Source: Cedecea neteri (GTDB taxonomy: Bacteria > Pseudomonadota > Gammaproteobacteria > Enterobacterales > Enterobacteriaceae). Taken from it: 64,000 nucleotides of DNA. The first letter of the stretch is position 1. Every line of letters begins with the position of its first letter. Location: positions 1,240,001 through 1,304,000 of the forward strand of contig NZ_CP009451.1 in NCBI RefSeq assembly GCF_000757825.1, in the 5' to 3' direction. This document shows positions 10,039 through 51,700 of the stretch, piece after piece. Made by a program: the position numbers and the translations under genes. The notes under the pieces are model-generated. The model was given only the letters and a program-made list of their open reading frames with translations. It did no database searches and was not told where the DNA came from.

Positions 10039-10102
10039 CGCCTCTTCACCCACCAATGCCTTTCGCTAAGCGACAAATATATTCTATGAAAGACTGGCTA
10101 AA

Positions 10103-10674
10103 ATTCCGTTCACTCGTAGAACGGTTTTCCCTACACGTTCAGAAACGGTGAACGAGTGAGGGGGAAATACGCCATTCCCCCTCACAACCCCCGGCGCCGG
10201 CGAGCTCATCGCCGCTGAAGCGGTAAACCCACCGGCCATCACCCAAACATTCGGGGTCGTTCGCGATTCGTTCCCGACGATCGCTCTCTTTCGCTGCTCC
10301 CGGCAGCTCAACCCCGCCTGAGTTGGGTCATAACCGGGGGCGATGAGAGCCGGGAACAAGGGCGTGGCTGTGAGACTTGCAGCGACTGTGACGCTCTGTG
10401 TAGCGGCGAGTTTGAAGCGAGGCTCGGTTCCGGCTTAAATCGCCTCCGTTTTCTCTCCGACTGGCCAAGGTCCGGCCGTCGGGAACGGCCGGAGGCTGAG
10501 AGCGTCGGGAACGCATCTCAGCCGACCCAGGACTGGGAGATAAAACTGAGGTTTACCGCTTGCGGCGATTTATTTGGCCGGGAGTCCGGGGTCTCGGGGA
10601 AGTGACGGTGACTTCCCCGAGTCGTTCACAAGTTCTGTGGTGACATGTGAAGCAGGGCTGGAAGTGAACGGAAC
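10103..10674. repeat. Structured noncoding repeat, copy A
   Basis: A 572-bp element, a close relative of 18741-19278 in the same orientation. Its ends are inverted (TTCCGTTCAC at 10104, GTGAACGGAA at 10664). It contains at least six hairpins. The outer ones are 10156-10185 (11 bp, GTGAGGGGGAA stem) and 10593-10621 (11 bp, CTCGGGGAAGT stem, loop GACGGTG). Inner ones at 10263-10284 and 10293-10307 both have loop TCCCG; those at 10471-10493 and 10494-10523 both have loop CGGGA. Copy A carries about 38 bp near 10370-10410 that copy B lacks. Open frames inside it are broken differently in the two copies, so I see no protein. It resembles a structured RNA or small non-autonomous mobile element. I cannot assign a known family. 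Confidence 0.85.
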
Positions 10675-10812
10675 TTGAGCCACTCCCTCATAGAACCTAT
10701 TTGTGACTAAGAGACAACACCAATCCCCCGAGAAATCTCACCAAAAGAAGCCAAACTCACCAGAACTTACTACAGTTACTGGGGGGTCTCCCGTACGGCA
10801 TCAGGTGACAAC

Positions 10813-11568
10813 ATGGCGCTTTATTCCATCGGAGAAGTGGCTGCACTGTGCAATATCAATCCGGTAACCCTTCGGGCCTGGCAGCGGCGTTATGGGCTGC
10901 TAAAACCTAAACGCAGTGACGGCGGACACCGGTTGTTTGATAGCGCAGACATCGCGCGCATTCGCGAGATCCAAACCTGGATTGAGCAAGGCGTACAGGT
11001 CAGCAAAGTCAAGGCGCTGCTCAGTGGTGAAAACCGTGAAAAAGAACATGCCTGGGGCGAGCGCCAGGAGACGCTGCTGCGTCATTTGCAAAGCGGCAAC
11101 CCGAACCTGCTGCGGGCGTGGATTGCCGACATCGGGCGCATCTACCCGGCGCAAACGCTCGTTCACCACCTCTATCTTCCCCTTCGCCGCCGCCTTTACG
11201 GGCAGCAGATTGCGCTGTGTGCGTTGCTTAGCCTGCTGGATGGCGCCCTGATTAATTACATTGCCACGTGCATTGCCACCTCGCGCAAGCAAAATGGTAA
11301 GGATGCTTTAGTGGTGGGCTGGAACGTGCAGGACACTACGCGACTATGGATGGCGGCGTGGATTGCCAGCCAGCAGGGCTGGCGGGTGGACGTGCTCGCC
11401 AACTCGCTGAGCAACCTGAAACCGGAGATTTTCGACCGGCAGACGCTGCTGGTGTGGTGCGGCGACTGCCCCGGAGAACGGCAGATAGATCAGATTGAAT
11501 CGTGGCGCAGCGCAGGACTGCCGGTGTTTGCGCTGGGCAACATTGAACGCAGGCAGCCCGCCGACTGA
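10813..11568 (+). CDS. mlrA: MlrA, MerR-like activator of curli/biofilm genes
   Basis: A 251-residue regulator. Residues 1-70 form a MerR winged-helix domain (SIGEVAALCNINPVTLRAWQ start, then GGHRLF). The C-terminal half has the conserved core ALVVGWNVQDTTRLW, and a cobalamin-type sensor domain without the usual ligand histidine is expected. In E. coli, MlrA acts with RpoS and c-di-GMP signalling at csgD. The neighbour yohO followed by yehWXY-osmF is the E. coli order, which supports the name. The start has only a weak ribosome site (CAGGTGAC). Repeat copy A lies immediately upstream. Confidence 0.93.
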   Translation: MALYSIGEVAALCNINPVTLRAWQRRYGLLKPKRSDGGHRLFDSADIARIREIQTWIEQGVQVSKVKALLSGENREKEHAWGERQETLLRHLQSGNPNLLRAWIADIGRIYPAQTLVHHLYLPLRRRLYGQQIALCALLSLLDGALINYIATCIATSRKQNGKDALVVGWNVQDTTRLWMAAWIASQQGWRVDVLANSLSNLKPEIFDRQTLLVWCGDCPGERQIDQIESWRSAGLPVFALGNIERRQPAD

Positions 11569-11677
11569 AAGGGCGACAAGAGGGAAAATCAGGCTTTTTC
11601 CCTCTTCGTCACAATCAAAGGTTCATTAACAACCCCGCTTCCCTTTATAATCGCTTCGTTAACAAACGGAGCAACGG

Positions 11678-11785
11678 ATGAAACTGTCAAAAATTGCCCT
11701 TGTGGGCGGAATGCTTGTCATGGCGGTCGGCGGTATCGGCGGCGTGATGCTGGTTGGCTATATCGTTATTTTGCATGGCGCGTAA
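11678..11785 (+). CDS. yohO: YohO, 35-residue small membrane protein
   Basis: A short gene with GGAG 8 nt before the ATG, encoding a positively charged N-terminus (MKLSK) and one Gly/Val-rich membrane helix ([11 protein letters not shown]), as in E. coli YohO, which lies at the same place between mlrA and yehW. Its last 20 nt overlap the 3' end of yehW on the opposite strand. The function is not known. Confidence 0.85.
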
Positions 11786-12497
11786 TGTAGCCTTCCAGGC
11801 GCTCAAACAGGCGGTCGGTGACAATTGCCGCCAGCGCCACCAGCACGGCACCCTGAATCACGTAGGCGGTATTAAAGCCGCTGAGCCCGATAATAATCGG
11901 TGACCCGAGCGTGTTGGCTCCCACGGTGGAGGCAATCGTCGCGGTGCCGATATTAATGATAACCGACGTTCTTATGCCCGCCAGAATCACCGGCGCGGCG
12001 AGCGGCAGCTCCACCTTTCTCAGCATTTGCCAACGGCTCATCCCGACCCCGAGCGCAATTTCACGTGCGGATTCTGGCACCGCGCCGATGCCCGCCAGCG
12101 TGCCCTGTAAAATCGGCAATAGGCCGTAGATAACCAGCGCGATAATCGCCGGCTCTTGCCCAAAACCCATCACCGGTACCGCCACGGCAAGGACGGCAAC
12201 CGGCGGGAAGGTTTGCCCGGCGGCGGTGATCGTCTCCACCAGCGAACGGAATTCTTCCCCCGCCGGACGAGTCACCAGGATCCCCAACCCGACGCCAATC
12301 ACCACCGCAACCAGGCTAGAAATACCCACTAACGTCAGATGCGCCAGCGCCAGAGAGGTGAAACTGTCCTGTTGATACATCGGCCTGGTCAGCTGCGGGA
12401 ACAGCCAGCTAAACAGCCCGCTGGTGTAAGGCAGCAGCACCAACAGCGCGATAAAAAGCGCGATAAGCCACAGCAGAGGGTCACGCAGCAGGCGCAT
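11766..12497 (-). CDS. yehW: YehW, permease of the YehZYXW/OsmF ABC importer
   Basis: A 243-residue inner-membrane permease with about five to six hydrophobic helices and an EAA-type cytoplasmic loop around residues 143-170 ([14 protein letters not shown]). It is the last gene of the osmF-yehY-yehX-yehW operon and overlaps yehX by 17 nt. The complex is related to glycine-betaine importers; in E. coli it has low affinity for betaine and is under RpoS control. Its 3' end overlaps yohO. Confidence 0.93.
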
Positions 12498-13425
12498 TTT
12501 CCCTCCTCACTAAATCGCTAAAGTGCAGCACGCCGCAGGGCTGATTTTGCTCATTCACCACCGGCAGCTGCTGGCACTGGCGGTCGATGAACAGCGACAG
12601 GGCTTCACGCAGCGTCATGTCCGCCCGAATAGGTTCTCCGTCCAGGCGCTCATCGGCACGAATACTGTCCGCCACGTGGCGCAGCGACAGCAGCCTGACG
12701 CCCAGTTCGCTGCGGCCGAAGAAGTCGCGCACAAAATCGTTAGCCGGGTTGGTCAGCAGTTCCAGCGGCGTCCCCTGCTGAATCACTTTGCCGCCGTCCA
12801 TCAGCACGATGTTATCGGCAAGCGTCAGCGCCTCGTCAATGTCGTGGGTTACCAGCACGATAGTACGCCCCAGCAGCTGATGAATACGGATCATCTCCTG
12901 CTGTAGCGTCGCGCGGGTGACCGGGTCAAGCGCGCCAAAAGGCTCATCCATCAGCAGCACTTCCGGGTCGGCCGCCAGCGCACGAGCCACGCCCACACGC
13001 TGCTGCTGCCCGCCGGAAAGCTGGTGCGGATAACGGTCGCGGAACTGCGTCGCGTCCAGGCCCAGCAATTCCAGCAGTTCGTCAATACGTTCGGCTACCC
13101 TCGCCTTCGGCCACTTCAGCAGCTCCGGTACCGTGGCGATATTCTGTGCCACCGTCCAGTGAGGAAACAGGCCGATAGACTGGATGGCATAGCCCATGCG
13201 GCGGCGAAGCGCCTTCGGGTCAAAGCGGCGAATTTCTTCTCCGGCAAAGCGGATAAGCCCTTCGTCGTGCTCCACCAGCCGGTTGATCATCTTCAGCGTG
13301 GTGGACTTGCCTGAACCGGAGGTGCCGATCAGCACGGTGAACTGCCCTTCGCGAATGTTCAGCGTCAAATCACTGACCGCCGCTTCGCCATGGAAGTATT
13401 TGCTGACGCGATCGAACTCGATCAT
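12481..13425 (-). CDS. yehX: YehX, ATPase of the YehZYXW/OsmF importer
   Basis: A 314-residue ABC ATPase. Walker A is GTSGSGKST (34-42), the Q-loop is near 82, the signature [10 protein letters not shown] is at 136-145 and Walker B VLLMDEP is at about 156. A C-terminal CBS-type region (about 250-310) is shared with osmoprotectant ATPases such as OpuCA/ProV. The ATG shares one base with the yehY stop (TAATG), so the two are probably translationally coupled. Confidence 0.94.
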
Positions 13426-14576
13426 TATTTTGCCTCCAGCAGTGAAATAAACAGCTTAAACAGCGCGTCGATAATAACCGCCAGCGCGATGACCGGCATG
13501 ACGCCAAGCAGAACCAGATCCAGCGCGCTGCTCAGCAGGCCCTGGAAAATAATCGAACCAAACCCGCCCGCGCCAATCAGCGCGGCAATCACCGCCATAC
13601 CGATCGTCTGCACGCAGACAACCCGCAGGCTGCGCAGCAGCACCGGCAGGGCAAGCGGCACTTCCGCCCGCCAAAAAATTTGGGCGCGAGACATGCCCAT
13701 CCCCTGCGCGCTTTCCACAATATTACGCGGCACCTGCTGCAGGCCAGCCACTACGCCACGTACCAGCGGCAGCAGCGCATAAAGCACCAGCGCAATCAGC
13801 GCGGGCGCTACGCCAATGCCGCTCACGCCGATTTTACCCAGCCATGGCAGCCATGCGGCAAGGCCGGCCAGCGGCGCAATAAGCAGGCCGAACAGCGCCA
13901 CCGAAGGCACCGTCTGAATCACGTTGAGCAGGGAAAATACGCCGGACTGCCAGGCAGGGCGGTGATAGCAAAGGATCCCCAGCGGGACGCCAATCAGCAA
14001 CGCAGGCACCAGCGTACCGACCAGCAGCGCCAGGTGGCGGCTCAGGGCGTCGTCAAAAACATCCTGCCGGTTGACGTACTCTTTCATCAGCGAAAGATCG
14101 CTGAAGTAGCCGCTCGCCAGCAGCGCGACGGGCACGATCCAGATTTGCAGGTTAAGCAGCAGCCGCCACAGCGGGCTGGCGGTGAGGCGATTGGCGGCGT
14201 CGGCGCACAGCAGCAGGCTCAGCGCTAACATCAGCCACAGGCCGCTGCCGGGCGAAGTGCGGGCCAGCGAGCTGCCCTCAAGCGCGAACTGGCTTGCGGT
14301 GTGCCCCATCAGCAGCAGCAGGCCGATAAACAACACCTCGCCGGTGACAATCGTCGCCAGCAGAGCAAGAGGTCGCCCCGGCGCCAGCGTCAGGCCAGCC
14401 AGAATCAGGAGAGGAAGCGCGAGCCAGTAATGAAGCGTGCCGGGAAGCTGGGTGATGCCAAACGGTTCACCGGAAACCAGGCGGTTAGGCGCGTTGTTGA
14501 TGATCGGGAGTAACATCAAGGCTGCTGCCAGCAGTAACACCAGCAGCAGCAATACCCTGTTATGAATTTTTAGCAA
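13425..14576 (-). CDS. yehY: YehY, large permease of the YehZYXW/OsmF importer
   Basis: A 383-residue permease with an N-terminal hydrophobic extension (about four helices) before the conserved BPD_transp_1 domain. The EAA loop is near residue 300 ([15 protein letters not shown]). This extended form is characteristic of YehY, in contrast to the short YehW. It sits between osmF and yehX. Confidence 0.93.
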
Positions 14577-14592
14577 ACGTTATTCCAGCGGG

Positions 14593-15504
14593 CTATTTAA
14601 CAAAGCCTTTTTGTTTTAAGTAATCAGCGGCCACTTTTTTAGCATCCTGACCTTCCACCGCAATCTTCGCGTTCAGCTGCTGCAGCGTTTTCTGGTCAAG
14701 AGAAGTGAACACCGGTTTCAGCCAGTCGGCAATCTGCGGGTATTCTTTCAGCACGGCTTCACGCACCACGGCGGTTGGCGCTGAAACGGCCTGCACGCCT
14801 TTCGGGTCGGTAAGGGTTTCCAGGCCTAATGCCGCAACCGGGCCATCGGTGCCGTAGGCCATCGCGGCGTTAACCCCGGAGGTCTGCTGCGCGGCGGCTT
14901 TGATGGTTACCGCCGTGTCGCCCCCGGCCAGAGACAGCAGCTGGCTTTGTTCCAGCTTAAAGCCGTAAGCTTTTTCAAAGGCCGGTAGCGCGTCGGAACG
15001 TTCGATAAACTCGGCGGAAGCCGCCAGCTTAAAGGTGCCGCCTTTTTTCAGGTATTCGCTGAGATCTGCCAGGGACACCAGATGGTTTTTCTCCGCCAGA
15101 TCCTTACGAACCGCGATGGTGTAAGTATTGTTGGCCGGAGCCGGAGTCAGCCACACCAGGTGGTTTTTGTCGTAGTCGAGCTGCTTAACTTTTTCATAGC
15201 CCTTCCGGGCGTCTTTCCAGGCCGGATCGTTTTCAGTTTTAAAGAAGAACGCCCCGTTGCCGGTATATTCAGGATAGATATCCAGCTCGCCGGAGGTTAT
15301 CGCCCCGCGCACGACCGGGGTGGTGCCAAGCTGAACCTTGTTGATGGTTTTCACATCATTGCTTTCCAGCACCTGCAAAATAATGTTGCCGAGCAGCGAG
15401 CCTTCGGTATCAATTTTCGAGCCGACCTTCACCGGATCCGCCGCCTGCGCGCCTGTCGCCAGCATCACTAACCCTGCCAAACCCCAACGTGTTGATAAGT
15501 TCAT
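14593..15504 (-). CDS. osmF: OsmF (YehZ), periplasmic binding protein of the osmoprotectant importer
   Basis: A 303-residue periplasmic solute-binding protein of the OpuAC/ProX-like glycine betaine family. The signal peptide spans residues 1-21 (cleavage after GAQA). The first motif of the mature part is VKVGSKIDTEGSLLGN, typical of OsmF/OpuCC proteins. It is the first gene of the operon, 16 bp before yehY. On the minus strand CTATTCT near 15550 could be an extended sigma-S-type -10 element, in line with the RpoS dependence known for E. coli osmF, but I cannot confirm it. Confidence 0.94.
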   Translation of the reverse strand: MNLSTRWGLAGLVMLATGAQAADPVKVGSKIDTEGSLLGNIILQVLESNDVKTINKVQLGTTPVVRGAITSGELDIYPEYTGNGAFFFKTENDPAWKDARKGYEKVKQLDYDKNHLVWLTPAPANNTYTIAVRKDLAEKNHLVSLADLSEYLKKGGTFKLAASAEFIERSDALPAFEKAYGFKLEQSQLLSLAGGDTAVTIKAAAQQTSGVNAAMAYGTDGPVAALGLETLTDPKGVQAVSAPTAVVREAVLKEYPQIADWLKPVFTSLDQKTLQQLNAKIAVEGQDAKKVAADYLKQKGFVK

Positions 15505-15868
15505 AGTTATTCCTCGTTGTTCTTTACTTAAAAATCATGCAGTAAAGAAAGAATAGCCGAGTTTGAATCAGCTGGGGAAAGCACTAAGCGGTATATGATA
15601 TGCGAAGTCGTTAGAACAGAAGGATGCCCTGAATTTTCCGGTCTGTCGGCTGCCTGCCCGGCTAAATCCCTACGTTTACTGTCATTTATATTTTTTTTAC
15701 CCGCCGCTTTTGCTTTTTTACCTTCTTTTTATACGCCAGTGAATATGCTCTTTTCGTCGCCGAGAGGCTCCGATAAAGACCATCATGAACTCACTTATTC
15801 ATCACTCACTCGTTAAAAACATTTTTACGCTTTTCGCTTTTCCTCAGGCTACGGCCAGTGAGGAAACC
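15505..15868. other. Divergent promoter region between osmF and the ligase gene
   Basis: 364 bp, T-rich in the middle (15680-15740). It must hold the promoters of osmF (minus) and of the PuuA-like gene (plus). If the latter started at the ATG at 15785, its leader would be shorter. I see no convincing operator palindrome or gene here. Confidence 0.5.
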
Positions 15869-17203
15869 GTGACTCAATCTGCCTCGATAAAGCCCGCGCA
15901 GGAGCGAACGAAAGCGTTTGCCGAGGAAGTGCGTCGCTATCTGCAGGCTCATCCCGACACAAAACATATTGATATCTACCTCAATGACGTCAACGGCGCT
16001 TTTCGCGGTAAACGCATCGCGGTAGACAGCCTGCTGTCGCTCTCGGCCGGCTGCTATTTTCCGCAGTCCGTTTACGCCATGGACCACGAAGGTAAGCCGT
16101 TTAGCCAGGCACCGGGTCACGATGAATACGATGAGCCCGACGGGCTTTGCCTGCCGGTGGCCGGGACGTTAAGGCCCTGCGCACACGACCCGCAGCACAA
16201 CGCGCAGCTGCTGTTAACCATGAAACAGGCCGACGGCAGCGGCTACGCGCTGGAGCCCAGAGTTGTGCTGGCAAACGTCCTGCAGAAGTTTCATTACCAC
16301 GGGCTGTTCCCGGTGGCGGCGCCGGAAATAGAGTTTTACCTGGTGAGCAAAGCCCAGCAGGAAGCCCCGGCTCAGGGCTGTTTTTATATGCCGGTGCCTT
16401 CTGATTACACCGCCTTTATTGAAGCGCTTGAACAGGCCGCCGCTGACCAAAAACTGCCGCTAAGCGGCATCGTCTGCGAAGCCGAAGCCGGGCAGTTTGA
16501 GCTGAACCTGAAGCATGCCAAAGACATCATCGGCATTTGTGAGAGCGTGCTGGCGCTGCGCCGCTTAACCAGCATTGTGGCCGATAAATTTGGCTATCAG
16601 GCTAACTTCATGGCGAAACCCTTTTCGCACCTGGCCGGGAACGGCCTGCATTTTCATATCAGCCTGAACGACCGCAAAGGCGAGAACGTCTTCGCCTCCC
16701 CGGCGGAAGCCCTGAACGAGATGACCCAGCTATGCCTGGCCGGGATGCTACAAACGATGCCCGCCGCGGTGGCCGTTATCGCCCCGCACGTGAACTCCTT
16801 CAGAAGGCTACGCAAAAACCTCAACGAGCCGCTGTTCAGCTCATGGGGCTATAACAAACGTAGCGCCGCCCTGCGCATCCCCTGCTCCGACGATAACAAC
16901 CGCCGCATTGAGTACCGCCTTGCCGGGGCCGACGTTAACCCGTACCTGGCGATGGCCGTCATTCTTACCGGCATGCTTTACGGGCTGGAAAATATCGACA
17001 GCGATACCCTGAAAAACTCGGCGCTGTTTGCCCCCGAACTGCCGCTGTTCCAGCACGTGGCAATCGTTGAGTTTCAGCAAAGCCATTACATGACCGAAAG
17101 CCTGGGCGAAGCTTTTTCCCGCCAGTGGGTAACCCACAAGCTGTCGGAACTGGCCTGGTTTGAAACGATTGTGACGCAGGAAGAAGCGGCGCTGTCCCGC
17201 TAG
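15869..17203 (+). CDS. Glutamine-synthetase-like ligase related to PuuA
   Basis: A member of the GlnA fold, closest in pattern to gamma-glutamylpolyamine synthetase PuuA: DVNGAFRGKRI near the start, EIEFYL, EAEAGQFELNL, the GNGLHFHISL metal-site segment, SFRR and RIEYRLAGADVNPYL. The catalytic metal ligands look intact, so an ATP-dependent ligation of an amine to glutamate or a similar acid is likely; the substrate is unknown. I prefer the GTG at 15869 (GAGG 5 nt upstream, 444 residues, N-terminus in register with PuuA) over the ATG at 15785, which has no clear ribosome site and adds 28 atypical residues. It is not in a puu cluster; it is paired with the GT20 gene 36 bp downstream. E. coli has no gene here between osmF and bglX. 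Confidence 0.85.
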   Translation: MTQSASIKPAQERTKAFAEEVRRYLQAHPDTKHIDIYLNDVNGAFRGKRIAVDSLLSLSAGCYFPQSVYAMDHEGKPFSQAPGHDEYDEPDGLCLPVAGTLRPCAHDPQHNAQLLLTMKQADGSGYALEPRVVLANVLQKFHYHGLFPVAAPEIEFYLVSKAQQEAPAQGCFYMPVPSDYTAFIEALEQAAADQKLPLSGIVCEAEAGQFELNLKHAKDIIGICESVLALRRLTSIVADKFGYQANFMAKPFSHLAGNGLHFHISLNDRKGENVFASPAEALNEMTQLCLAGMLQTMPAAVAVIAPHVNSFRRLRKNLNEPLFSSWGYNKRSAALRIPCSDDNNRRIEYRLAGADVNPYLAMAVILTGMLYGLENIDSDTLKNSALFAPELPLFQHVAIVEFQQSHYMTESLGEAFSRQWVTHKLSELAWFETIVTQEEAALSR

Positions 17204-17239
17204 TGCTTTATTAACCTAAACGCCGACCTGAGGTGGTGT

Positions 17240-18661
17240 ATGTCTCGTCTTATTATGCTGTCTAATCGCTGCGAGCCAGAGCGCGGACAGAGCGGCGATC
17301 CTTTCCTGCCGGTGCTCCACTCCATCCTGAAGAAACATTCGGGACTTTGGTTTGGCTGGAACGGCGAGGTGGCAAGCGGTAATAAACACCGTAAAGAGCG
17401 TTTTTTCAGCCAGCCCGCCTATCAGCAGTACAGCTGGGCACTAACGCCGAACGAATATGACAATTTTTACCAGGGCTATATTCACCAGGTGCTGTGGCCG
17501 GTTTTTCATAACCGCCCGGATCTGATCCACTATAAAAAAGAGTATTTCACTACCTGGAAAAACTATAACCACGACGTCAAGGCGCGGGTGGCCGCCAAAA
17601 TTGAGGCCGACGATCTCGTCTGGGTGCAGGACTACCATTTACTGTTTACCGGCAAGATGCTGAAAGAAGACGGGCACGCCAACCGCTGCGGTTTCTTCCT
17701 GCATCAGTCCTTCCCGCCTGGCGACGTGCTGCGCTCGGTGCCCGAGCACGACAGCATTATGCAGGCGCTGTTCAGCTACGATTTACTTGGGTTTCAGTCA
17801 AGCGGCGACGTGAATAACTTCCTCGCCTATGCGCTGCGATTTTACCGCGTGGAACGGCTGGCGGATAACCTGATTCAGCTCAATGGTCACCCCATCAGGC
17901 TTGGCATTTTCCCATGCGGCATTGATAAAACGGTGCCGGCGCTTTCATTAACGAATGCCGAAGCGGTGCGCAACTATCCGCGTCAGATAATCATCAGCAA
18001 CGACACCGTCAGCGACATCAGCGGCGTGCATTGCCATCTGGCTACTATGGAAACGTTTCTAAGCAGCCACCCTGAGTTCCTGCGCGACGTTAGCCTGCTG
18101 CAGATCTCAGACGCTTCCAGAGGCTACTCCTGGTCGGCGCGGGATCTCTGCACCCGGCTGGAACGCCAGTGCGGAGAAATTAACGACCGATTTGGCGATG
18201 CGTCCTGGTATCCCATCAACTACATTCGCAACCAGCTTTGCCACGCTGACCTGATTTACGCCTTCTACCGCAACGCGCACGTGGCGATGTTCACCCCGCT
18301 TTCGGAGGGGATGAGCCTGCAGGCCAAGACGTTTGTTCTCGCGCAGAATGCCGAAGATCCCGGCGTGCTGATGCTGTCCGCCCTGACGGGGACAGCGGAG
18401 CAGTTAACGGACGCGGTGTTGATCAATCCCTACGACGCCAGCGAAGCCAGCCATGCGCTTTATTCCGCGCTGACGATGCCGCTGCACGAACGTAAACGTC
18501 GGCATCAGCAGCTGCTGGCAAAAGTGGAGAGGTATGACAGCCAGTGGTGGGCCAGAGCGTTTCTTGATGCGCTAAATGTAGAGCCTGTTCAGGCTTCCCA
18601 GACGGTGATCCCGTTCCGCGCTTCTCATCACGGTATTTTCACACCACAGAATTTGTATTAA
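17240..18661 (+). CDS. GT20 trehalose-phosphate-synthase-like protein with altered active site
   Basis: A 473-residue OtsA-fold protein. Several family landmarks are present: SNR at 8, GLWFGW at 35, WPVFH at 86, VQDYHL at 129, FFLHQSFP at 152 and DPGVLMLS at 373. The motif that in OtsA reads VERLDYSKG and supplies the Arg and Lys that hold UDP-glucose is here NDTVSDISG (254-262): Arg to Thr256, Lys to Ser261. The acidic DGMNLVAKE loop is changed to EGMSLQAKT (356-364). Normal trehalose-6-phosphate synthesis is therefore doubtful; the protein may use another donor or act as a pseudo-glycosyltransferase. It has a good ribosome site (GAGGTGG) and follows the ligase gene closely, so the two form an operon. 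No trehalose phosphatase gene is nearby. Confidence 0.85.
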   Translation: MSRLIMLSNRCEPERGQSGDPFLPVLHSILKKHSGLWFGWNGEVASGNKHRKERFFSQPAYQQYSWALTPNEYDNFYQGYIHQVLWPVFHNRPDLIHYKKEYFTTWKNYNHDVKARVAAKIEADDLVWVQDYHLLFTGKMLKEDGHANRCGFFLHQSFPPGDVLRSVPEHDSIMQALFSYDLLGFQSSGDVNNFLAYALRFYRVERLADNLIQLNGHPIRLGIFPCGIDKTVPALSLTNAEAVRNYPRQIIISNDTVSDISGVHCHLATMETFLSSHPEFLRDVSLLQISDASRGYSWSARDLCTRLERQCGEINDRFGDASWYPINYIRNQLCHADLIYAFYRNAHVAMFTPLSEGMSLQAKTFVLAQNAEDPGVLMLSALTGTAEQLTDAVLINPYDASEASHALYSALTMPLHERKRRHQQLLAKVERYDSQWWARAFLDALNVEPVQASQTVIPFRASHHGIFTPQNLY

Positions 18662-18740
18662 TGATCAGAATTATGCGCTTTGGGCGGTTTGTACCACTTC
18701 CATCTTGTCTATTTCGGGAGAATTATTTAGTCCACGCATA

Positions 18741-19278
18741 ATTCCGTTCACCCGTAGATCTGTTTCCCCTTTACGTCCAGGGCACGGTGAACGTGTCAGG
18801 GAGATAACGCCATCTCCCTGACAACCCTGGCGCCCGGCGAGCTCATCGCCGCTGAAGCGGTAAACCCACCGGTTATCACCCAAACATTCGGGGTCGTTCG
18901 CGATTCGTTCCCGACGATCGCTCTCTTTCGCTGTTCCCGACAGCTCAACCCCGCCTGAGTTGGGTCATAACCGGGGGCGATGAGAGCCGGGAACAAGGGC
19001 GTGGCTATAAGTTTGAAGCGAGGCTCGGTTCCGGCTTAAATCGCCTCCGTTTTCTCTCCGACTGGCCGGGGTCCGGACGTCGGGAACGGCCGGAGGCTGA
19101 GAGCGTCGGGAACGCGTCTCAGCCGACCCAGGACTGGGAGATAAAACGGAGGTCTGCCGCTTCAGCGGTCGATTTATTTGGCCGGGAGTCCAGGTTCTTA
19201 GGGGAGTGACGGTGACTCCCCTAAGACGTTCACCTGTGCGGGGGCTGCATATAAAGCAGGGCTGGAAGTGAACGGAAT
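18741..19278. repeat. Structured noncoding repeat, copy B
   Basis: A 538-bp second copy of the 10103-10674 element, same orientation. Its ends are a perfect 11-bp inverted repeat (ATTCCGTTCAC at 18741, GTGAACGGAAT at 19268). The left hairpin is 18794-18823 (12-bp stem) and the right one 19197-19225 (11 bp, same GACGGTG loop as copy A). TCCCG-loop hairpins are at 18900-18921 and 18930-18944; CGGGA-loop hairpins are at 19072-19094 and 19095-19124. Stem changes relative to copy A are mostly paired (see findings), while loops are unchanged. I see no target-site duplication. Confidence 0.85.
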
Positions 19279-19358
19279 CTTAGCTGAATCTGCATAAATA
19301 GCGATTTTCATGGCAAAAATATTTCCCGGTAAGATCCCCTGCCACAGTTGATATTCCA

Positions 19359-50586: not shown

Positions 50587-51573
50587 TTAGCCGCCGATAT
50601 ACGACAAATTTTGGGTGATGCCGGTGTTACCGTCATGCAGGAAATGGGTTTGCTTTTTCTGCGCCAGCGCGGAAGCGATACGCCCTTCCAGCTCGCTCTG
50701 TTGGGCGTCATCCGCCAGCAGATCTCGTAGCGCAATCCCCTGTTCGCCAAAAAGGCAAAGGTGCAGGTTGCCGACCGAGGAGACGCGCAGCCGGTTACAG
50801 CTGGCACAGAAATCTTTCTCGTACGGCATGATGAGCCCGATTTCCCCTTCATAGTCGGGGTGACAGAAGACCTGAGCGGGGCCATCGCTGCGCTGACGAA
50901 GCTGGTGAACCCAGCCGCGTTCAAGCAGCTGGTCACGGATGGTTTTGCCGGAGATATGGTGTTTGCGGAAAAGCGTGCCGCCGTCGCCGGTTTCCATCAG
51001 CTCAATAAAGCGTAGCTGGATAGGGCGAGGTTTGATCCAGGCAAGGAAGGTTTCGAGCTGATTATGGTTTACGTCACGCATCAGCACGGTGTTCACCTTC
51101 ACACGCTCAAAACCGGCGTTGAAAGCGGCATCAATCCCGTCCATCACCAGGCGGAATTTATCCTGGCCGGTGATGGCATGAAACTGGCGGGCATCGAGGC
51201 TGTCGACGCTAACGTTAAGGGCGGTCAGCCCGGCATCACGCCACGCGTTAACGTCCCGAGCCAGGCGATAGCCGTTGGTGGTCACGGCAAGCTGGCGAAT
51301 AGAGGCGTTTTCACGCACCGCGGCGATGATGTCGGTAAAGTCCCGTCGCAGAGAGGGTTCACCGCCGGTCAGGCGTACTTTTTCCGTCCCCAAAGCCGCA
51401 AAAGCCCGGGTGACGCGGCGGATTTCATCGACGTTGAGAAAGCTTTTATTGGCCACACCGTGGGGCTTGTAGCCGTCGGGCAGGCAATAGCTGCAGCGGA
51501 AATTGCAGACGTCGGTTATTGATAAGCGCAAGTAATAGAACTTACGCGCAAAAGCATCGGTAAGCTGGGACAC
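50587..51573 (-). CDS. moaA: MoaA, GTP 3',8-cyclase
   Basis: A 328-residue radical-SAM enzyme, first step of molybdenum cofactor synthesis. The SAM cluster cysteines are C23, C27 and C30 ([10 protein letters not shown]). A second cluster is formed by FCASCNRLR and LHLCLFG, and the C-terminus ends in the essential Gly-Gly (SYIGG). I chose the GTG at 51573 because AAAGG lies about 9 nt upstream and the start aligns with E. coli MoaA. Confidence 0.95.
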
Positions 51574-51594
51574 TGAGTACACCTTTCCAAATAC

Positions 51595-51700
51595 GGGAGA
51601 TGCAGTCATTTCTTCCTGCACCCTGGCAACCTCGGGGGCTGCGGCCAGGGCACCTTATCTTGTGACTTAGGTACCAGGGCTTGAGTGTGTGTTACTGCGA
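51595..51700 (-). ncRNA. Moco RNA motif (moaA leader)
   Basis: The leader upstream of moaA folds into GC-rich helices. The clearest is GCCCTGG pairing with CCAGGGT around the purine-rich internal segment (51618-51651). Position and sequence resemble the molybdenum-cofactor-sensing leader of E. coli moaABCDE, which lowers expression when cofactor is present. The exact boundaries are estimated. Confidence 0.65.

Follow-up and report, generated by a model that had tools for sequence, protein, structure and literature searches.

A hairpin-rich repeat found twice in a Cedecea neteri locus probably belongs to a family of large insertion elements with Tn5-type ends

The 64,000-nucleotide stretch of Cedecea neteri DNA analysed here (the window; contig NZ_CP009451.1, positions 1,240,001 to 1,304,000) contains two closely alike hairpin-rich elements, copy A at 10103-10674 and copy B at 18741-19278. 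Copy A is neighboured by the gene of a JmjC/ROXA-like protein and by mlrA, and copy B is placed after a gene of glycosyltransferase family 20, the family of trehalose-phosphate synthase. A preliminary description made from the sequence had located both elements, and direct reading bears out these positions; they cover the inner part of a unit of ~660 bp that reaches ~44-61 bp further on either side. The two copies are members of a real and widespread repeat family. Its members are probably large non-autonomous insertion elements, that is, miniature inverted-repeat transposable elements (MITEs), with ends of the Tn5/IS50 type and with hairpin stems that change by processes acting on DNA. The features of the two copies are as follows.

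10051..10059, no strand: left target-site duplication of copy A, CACCAATGC, an 8/9 match to 10718-10726, its position set by the Tn5-like ends
10060..10075, plus strand: left outer end of copy A, decayed Tn5/IS50-type, CTTTCGCTAAGCGACA, 11/16 to the end consensus; the inner repeat begins 44 bp further in, a spacing seen in many copies
10104..10113, plus strand: left inner inverted repeat of copy A, TTCCGTTCAC, with 67 exact sites in its own genome against 6 for the reversed control
10156..10185, plus strand: hairpin H1 of copy A, TACGCC in the loop, covariation across 44 distinct copies
10293..10307, plus strand: hairpin of copy A with a TCCCG loop, from direct reading
10343..10438, plus strand: open frame of 31 codons in copy A (MRAGNKGVAV...KRGSVPA) at the palindrome apex, with a weak coding-like signal in Cedecea
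10474..10490, plus strand: hairpin of copy A with a TCGGGAA loop, from direct reading
10502..10514, plus strand: second hairpin of copy A with a TCGGGAA loop, from direct reading
10593..10621, plus strand: hairpin H7 of copy A, loop GACGGTG, covariation across 30 distinct copies
10664..10673, minus strand: right inner inverted repeat of copy A
10702..10717, minus strand: right outer end of copy A, TTGTCTCTTAGTCACA on the minus strand, 15/16 to the Tn5-like end consensus
10718..10726, no strand: right target-site duplication of copy A, CACCAATCC, an 8/9 match to the left one
18681..18741, plus strand: left outer region of copy B, end decayed past recognition (best end score 8/16), boundary inferred from other copies
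18742..18751, plus strand: left inner inverted repeat of copy B
18795..18822, plus strand: hairpin H1 of copy B
18930..18944, plus strand: hairpin of copy B with a TCCCG loop
19197..19225, plus strand: hairpin H7 of copy B
19268..19277, minus strand: right inner inverted repeat of copy B
19278..19324, minus strand: right outer region of copy B, end decayed (best end score 7/16), boundary inferred from other copies

Taken as a whole, the element forms a long imperfect palindrome, with RNA fold z-scores of -9.5 on the plus strand and -8.4 on the minus strand. The compensating stem changes described earlier are exact, as seen by direct reading and pairwise alignment. In the left hairpin, H1, the arms GTGAGGGGGAA/TTCCCCCTCAC of copy A correspond to GTCAGGGAGAT/ATCTCCCTGAC in copy B, with three pairs swapped, and in the right hairpin, H7, CTCGGGGAAGT/ACTTCCCCGAG correspond to CTTAGGGGAGT/ACTCCCCTAAG, again with three pairs swapped around a GACGGTG loop that is the same in both. 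The hairpin with the TCCCG loop differs by a single swap of C-G to T-A. The element also looks noncoding, as had been proposed; a protein gene covering it was rejected because no frame spans A or B, the longest overlapping frames being 91 and 70 codons.

With copy A as the query, the own genome (a single contig of 4.88 Mb) gave no fewer than 59 matched pieces spread over 38 or more places, 11 of them full length; these counts are lower bounds since 40 of 73 candidates were scored. The family was matched in all eight Cedecea genomes (a lower bound, with up to ten matches scored per genome), in all 12 Buttiauxella genomes, one of which (G068) gave one weak match only, and in one further genus, g90. 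A Buttiauxella query gave matches in 23 of 295 genomes of the bacterial family, 15 of the 23 being weaker than 1e-10; at most two candidates were scored per genome, so this is again a lower bound. The genus labels Cedecea, for the relatives, and Buttiauxella (G026, G060, and G064) are inferred names. The set of two-ended copies comprises 78, three of which are from Buttiauxella; copies found at one site in several species are non-independent in all counts. The inner part of the element has a GC content of 60%. A description of the repeat family was not noticed in the literature searched, which was limited to open-licence PMC papers, incompletely listed.

Judged by eye, the flanks of different copies stay alike for ~44-61 bp outside TTCCGTTCAC, and the outer ends are best seen in Buttiauxella and g90. 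From these genera 40 loci were fetched, picked from the best matches; in 18 of them each outer end reaches 12/16 or better, and these units are 613-711 bp long. They start with CTGTCTCTTATACACA, CTGTCTCTTAGTCACA, or a close variant of these, with the inverse at the other end, and nine of the 18 units reach 15 or 16 of 16 at each end. This is the mosaic end of Tn5, of the Tn5/IS50 type; papers naming that end give the same 16 bases. Direct duplications of 9 bp agreeing at 8/9 positions or better flank four of the 18 units (9/9 in L276 and L279, 8/9 in L277 and L291), and in L284 the duplication becomes exact once shifted by 1 nt. When the 12 Cedecea units are added to the 18, the mean agreement of the duplications is 4.23/9, compared to 3.49 with permuted partners; the largest of 2000 permuted means was 4.20, narrowly under the observed value. 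The outer ends of the Cedecea copies are decayed. Copy A has kept one end at 15/16, the other at 11/16, and a duplication at 8/9. In C. davisae (G006) the corresponding site is empty: the genes are 146 bp apart with no element between them, compared to 814 bp here, a comparison made on gap length and element content and not on a base-level alignment of the breakpoint. The pairing of flanking half-stems across the insertion was uninformative (5.80 vs 5.78 permuted). The preliminary description had listed an RNA-encoding mobile element among its options, and the Tn5-type ends and duplications of some units, the dispersal, and the empty site support mobility.

A transposase-bearing element with the same kind of ends exists in the same bacterial family. 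PF14706, the DNA-binding domain of Tn5-type transposases, was found in 17 of 392 genomes of the family, 15 of them above the family cut-off. In one of these genomes (G224) a 1492-bp element with the ends CTGTCTCTTATACACA and CTGTCTCTTGATCAGA and a 9/9 duplication, CGTGTAAGC, carries an uninterrupted transposase frame; the 456-aa product has the domains PF14706 and PF01609, and its match to the structurally characterised Tn5 transposase has E=3.2e-85. In four others (G220, G319, G030, and G119) a Tn5-type end lies ~125-131 bp from the PF14706 domain. Many matches to CTGTCTCTTATACACA in the family-wide scan fell at draft contig ends, among them those in G031, G183, and G059, and are probably remains of sequencing adapters; only internal sites beside element sequence or a transposase were used.

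Other sequences with such ends were observed as well. A 404-bp single-arm relative with perfect Tn5-type ends and different internal hairpin loops is found in another genus (L263, 1307-1710), and miniature elements of 155-157 bp have Tn5-type ends at 14-16 of 16 (L336, 1501-1657; L346, 1501-1655; L347, 1360-1516). In the own genome, the apex of three copies (L113, 2218-3177; L109, 2058-3017; L112, 1853-2812) carries a nearly identical gene of an IS110-family transposase (PF01548, PF02371), placed within a small CT-rich palindrome. Including the surrounding repeat, L113 is 98.9% identical to L109 across 1433 bp, and L112 is 98.4% identical to L109 across 1413 bp.

Several observations weigh against an origin of the repeats as Tn5-type MITEs. 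The duplication agrees at fewer than 8/9 positions in 14 of the 18 Buttiauxella/g90 units, and the margin over the permutations is small and owed to few units. Copy B has neither end recognisable and no recognisable duplication, and of the 76 remaining two-ended copies only 12 reach 12/16 or better at each end. The ends seem less conserved than the inside: the right outer 20 bp are 52% alike in random pairs, compared to a mean of 88% inside, which is not predicted by the neutral decay of a MITE. The likeness of the ends to those of the transposase-bearing elements spans, by eye, just ~20 bp. Finally, PF14706 was found in none of the eight Cedecea and none of the 12 Buttiauxella genomes, so the hosts of the element lack the motor; a candidate autonomous partner with the same kind of ends is present in other genera of the bacterial family and absent from these 20.

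When it comes to genomic placement, the copies are found mainly between convergent genes. Genes around the copies were called by a simple longest-frame rule. Seven of the 78 two-ended copies were left out for short flanks, and 65 of the remaining 71 were resolved: 49 lie between convergent, 15 between tandem, and one between divergent genes. Across 68 loci with a length of 8 kb or more, 52 gaps hold an element; 32 of these gaps are convergent, 17 tandem, and three divergent, and the convergent share is far above that of other gaps of at least 60 bp (24/181; odds ratio 10.5, p=1.8e-11). By a hand count, 28 of the 49 convergent cases have the inner repeat no more than 100 bp from each of the two called stop codons. 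The target motif CYCTCY/RGAGRG is present on both sides of eight of the 18 Buttiauxella/g90 units, compared to 0.12% of 5000 random points, and insertion into small terminator-like palindromes may account for much of the placement.

The sites also show turnover. Site A holds a full element in three of eight genomes and remnants in three (one at a contig end); it is empty in C. davisae and falls at a contig end in G003. Site B holds an element or a remnant in seven of the eight, with the orientation reversed in G007 and G003; in G007, two full tandem copies are found at this site (L033, 657-1231 and 1501-2075). Using 77 of the 78 two-ended copies, one duplicate having been removed, 29 copy pairs have both flanks common to two species; 21 of these have the same orientation and eight, at six loci, are reversed. 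For 14 of the 18 full-length pairs, one of the two genomes holds a copy at another site that is more similar than the same-site copy, a comparison of the best of many with one. The reversed copies were first read as inversion in place or gene conversion. The homology of the flanks at the six reversed loci breaks off near the outer ends, 20-114 nt away from the inner repeats, which makes re-insertion at the same hot spot an equal explanation. Exchange of sequence among copies and re-use of sites are thus both compatible with these observations.

The paired stem changes extend across the family. The 44 distinct left hairpins have 92.6% of 484 cells paired, and ten of the 11 pairs of H1 are doubly changed; for the 30 distinct right hairpins the corresponding figures are 97.3% of 330 cells and six of the 11 pairs of H7. 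The covariation score is 0.627 for H1, compared to 0.177 in shuffled and at most 0.150 in slid controls, and 0.456 for H7, compared to 0.240 and at most 0.192; none of 500 shuffles reached the observed score in either case. Weaker measures were matched more often, the number of doubly changed pairs by 10/500 (H1) and 45/500 (H7) shuffles, and the number of pair types by 93/500 and 222/500. The rows are related copies, and the shuffle fractions are therefore not probabilities. The rows were gathered by a pattern that required the loop, and the alignments are anchored on it; one of 45 left matches (L068) was dropped as a chance TTCCGTTCAC site without element sequence, in which the stem is not formed. 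When the loop was not required, NACGCC was found in 52 of 60 distinct left hairpins and GACGGTG in 31 of 37 right ones. The preliminary description had called for a covariation check on an alignment of copies, and the outcome was divided: the loop-anchored hairpins stand above most controls, while a tree-based test on a whole-element MAFFT alignment (52 of 58 rows kept) gave four column pairs at E<0.05, none of them a true stem pair, because the stems are misaligned in that alignment. The structure predicted from the full alignment by RNAalifold was diffuse.

A structured RNA under selection is expected to tolerate G-U clearly more than A-C. In H1 and H7 taken together, the non-Watson-Crick cells comprise 18 G-T and 18 A-C (an earlier count, on a slightly different set of rows, gave 20 and 16), and as the two are equal overall, no single RNA strand is indicated. 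At least one such pair occurs in 25 of the 44 distinct H1 and 19 of the 30 distinct H7 hairpins. Taken apart, H1 has three G-T and 14 A-C, and H7 has 15 G-T and four A-C. These opposite leanings are unexplained and count against the MITE reading given above; they probably reflect few independent events. Seen from the outer ends, the A-C lean in H1 and the G-T lean in H7 share one polarity. In long inverted repeats one arm can be copied onto the other, and given this and the apparent exchange among copies, covariation alone is no proof of selection. The preliminary description had seen in the covariation the signature of a selected RNA or single-stranded DNA structure; the repeat is indeed structured and covarying, but selection on a single RNA strand is not borne out by the mismatch counts. 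The paired changes are real, yet they look like a property of palindromic DNA and not of one RNA strand, and they are compatible with hairpins in DNA, with copying between the arms, or with selection on the two strands alike, without RNA being thereby disproved.

The explanation we find most probable, a Tn5-ended MITE family, can be sketched as follows. The unit would consist of two inverted hairpin-rich arms of ~250 bp each flanking a variable apex, with ends of ~16-19 bp at its borders. A transposase of the Tn5 family, provided in trans, would cut these ends and insert the unit; insertion would create a 9-bp duplication and often take place at the tip of a small CYCTCY...RGAGRG palindrome. 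In settled copies the ends would decay, and inner sequence would be swapped among copies, or copies replaced; the copies are found mainly between convergent genes. The stem changes between A and B would then be different hairpin 'alleles' common to copies, with pairing kept up at the DNA level by arm-to-arm copying, by exchange between copies, or by selection equal on both strands.

How the arms stay matched can be accounted for in several ways. It is quite possible, at somewhat less than an even chance, that the covariation arises solely from template switching (quasipalindrome correction) together with exchange between copies, the stems being unselected. Of the near-perfect hairpins, the two longest are those whose stems change, most other arm sequence being nearly invariant, although the apex and the stretch beside the inner repeats also vary; the stems of L190 and L110 resemble half of one allele fused to half of another, and the closeness of same-genome paralogs in 14 of the 18 full-length pairs points the same way. 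That comparison pits the best of many against one, however, and both hairpin loops are largely unchanged across genera. We consider it possible but doubtful that the repeat is a bidirectional 3'-end element at convergent genes, be it a terminator, a protector of mRNA ends, or a supercoil/gyrase site, with both strands selected. The excess of convergent gaps, the 49 convergent cases among 65, the closeness of 28 of these to both stop codons, and the overall strand-neutral pairing would all fit. The same map would, however, follow from a preference for inserting into terminator-like palindromes combined with loss of harmful insertions, the intrinsic-terminator pattern is not above shuffles, and the same-site copies of several species are non-independent.

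A structured noncoding RNA made from one strand, its stems kept by selection and its copies spread by transposition, appears unlikely. The covariation is strong, the loops are largely conserved, the inside is better conserved than the ends, and the folds are very stable on both strands. The equality of G-T and A-C and the presence of a non-Watson-Crick pair in over half of the distinct hairpins speak against it, as do the lack of a sigma-70-like promoter pattern in A or B, the single terminator-like pattern in each (0.9 in shuffles), and the occurrence of both orientations among copies at one site. Nor was there any Rfam family: the comparison suggested in the preliminary description gave no match at the gathering threshold in the whole window, and a loose search around copy A gave two microRNA-precursor matches at E 0.07-0.08, so a known RNA family was rejected. 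Elsewhere in the window a molybdenum cofactor riboswitch (RF01055) lies at 51565-51699 on the minus strand. Slightly less likely still is a short membrane peptide encoded in the apex, which is variable in sequence and mostly conserved in length. The frame at 10343-10438 and its counterparts in other Cedecea copies are hydrophobic. A common apex length of 103 is shared by 58 of the 77 distinct Cedecea apices, and in these the frame is 31 codons long in 47, 23 in ten, and ten in one; the synonymous share is 0.43 compared to 0.29 expected, with a period-3 permutation p=0.027. Nearly as high a score is reached, however, by a reverse frame that contains stops in every one of the 58 rows (0.41 vs 0.28), no good ribosome site was seen by eye, and the frame was not seen by eye in the 17 printed of 37 Buttiauxella/g90 units. 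The phage-type regulator of the preliminary description, a C4-like antisense RNA, is hardly credible. It has the general look, hairpins with complementary loops, in its favour, but copy A had no blastn match in E. coli genomes, plasmids, or phages (50,697 phage records), a 27-mer search of viral contigs gave no match to the element, no C4-type match was found in Rfam, and the copies are dispersed and intergenic. A phage or plasmid origin was rejected on the same blastn and viral-contig searches.

Among known systems, IS50/Tn5, which belongs to the IS4 family, is similar in its ends of 16-19 bp, in the 9-bp duplication seen in some units, and in the same-ended transposase elements of the bacterial family. 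The repeat differs from it in being a two-armed palindrome of 613-711 bp without a transposase gene, in host genera without PF14706. REP/BIME and REPINs are short; they are linked to REP-associated tyrosine transposases and, to our knowledge, have no Tn5-type ends. They too are reported to be extragenic palindromes, often as inverted pairs (PMC3116915; PMC2817692). ERIC, IRU, RU-1, and other enterobacterial MITEs are described as dispersed intergenic palindromes with terminal inverted repeats, target duplications, and secondary structure (PMC2229807; PMC10969869), all features of the present repeat as well. They are, however, shorter than 200 bp, A+T-rich, and mostly have TA at their ends (PMC2229807), whereas the repeat has 613-711 bp, CTGTCTCTT-type ends, and 60% GC inside. 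The same source gives YPAL/RU-2 of Yersinia as not A+T-rich, with targets that span or adjoin dyad symmetry, which is a likeness, but with a size of 168 bp, internal inverted repeats, and duplications of 3-26 bp, unlike the repeat here (PMC2229807). The CIR repeats of Caulobacter likewise have two long inverted-repeat arms joined via a linker, but belong to other hosts, and no terminal inverted repeats are listed for them (PMC2229807).

With this family, bacterial miniature elements would gain a large two-armed, Tn5-ended class tied to a known transposase family. It also provides a case where striking stem covariation need not imply a functional RNA, and the count of G-T against A-C is a simple strand test for such repeats. 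It might be, though we hold it rather unlikely, that a Tn5-type mobile palindrome has been co-opted as a standard boundary of convergent genes in two enterobacterial genera, where a cruciform or RNA hairpins on two strands would end or shield both transcripts and the strand-neutral covariation would reflect selection on both strands. A boundary function between convergent genes is the most interesting possibility, and the placement of dozens of copies between such genes makes the question of a bidirectional 3' boundary directly testable.

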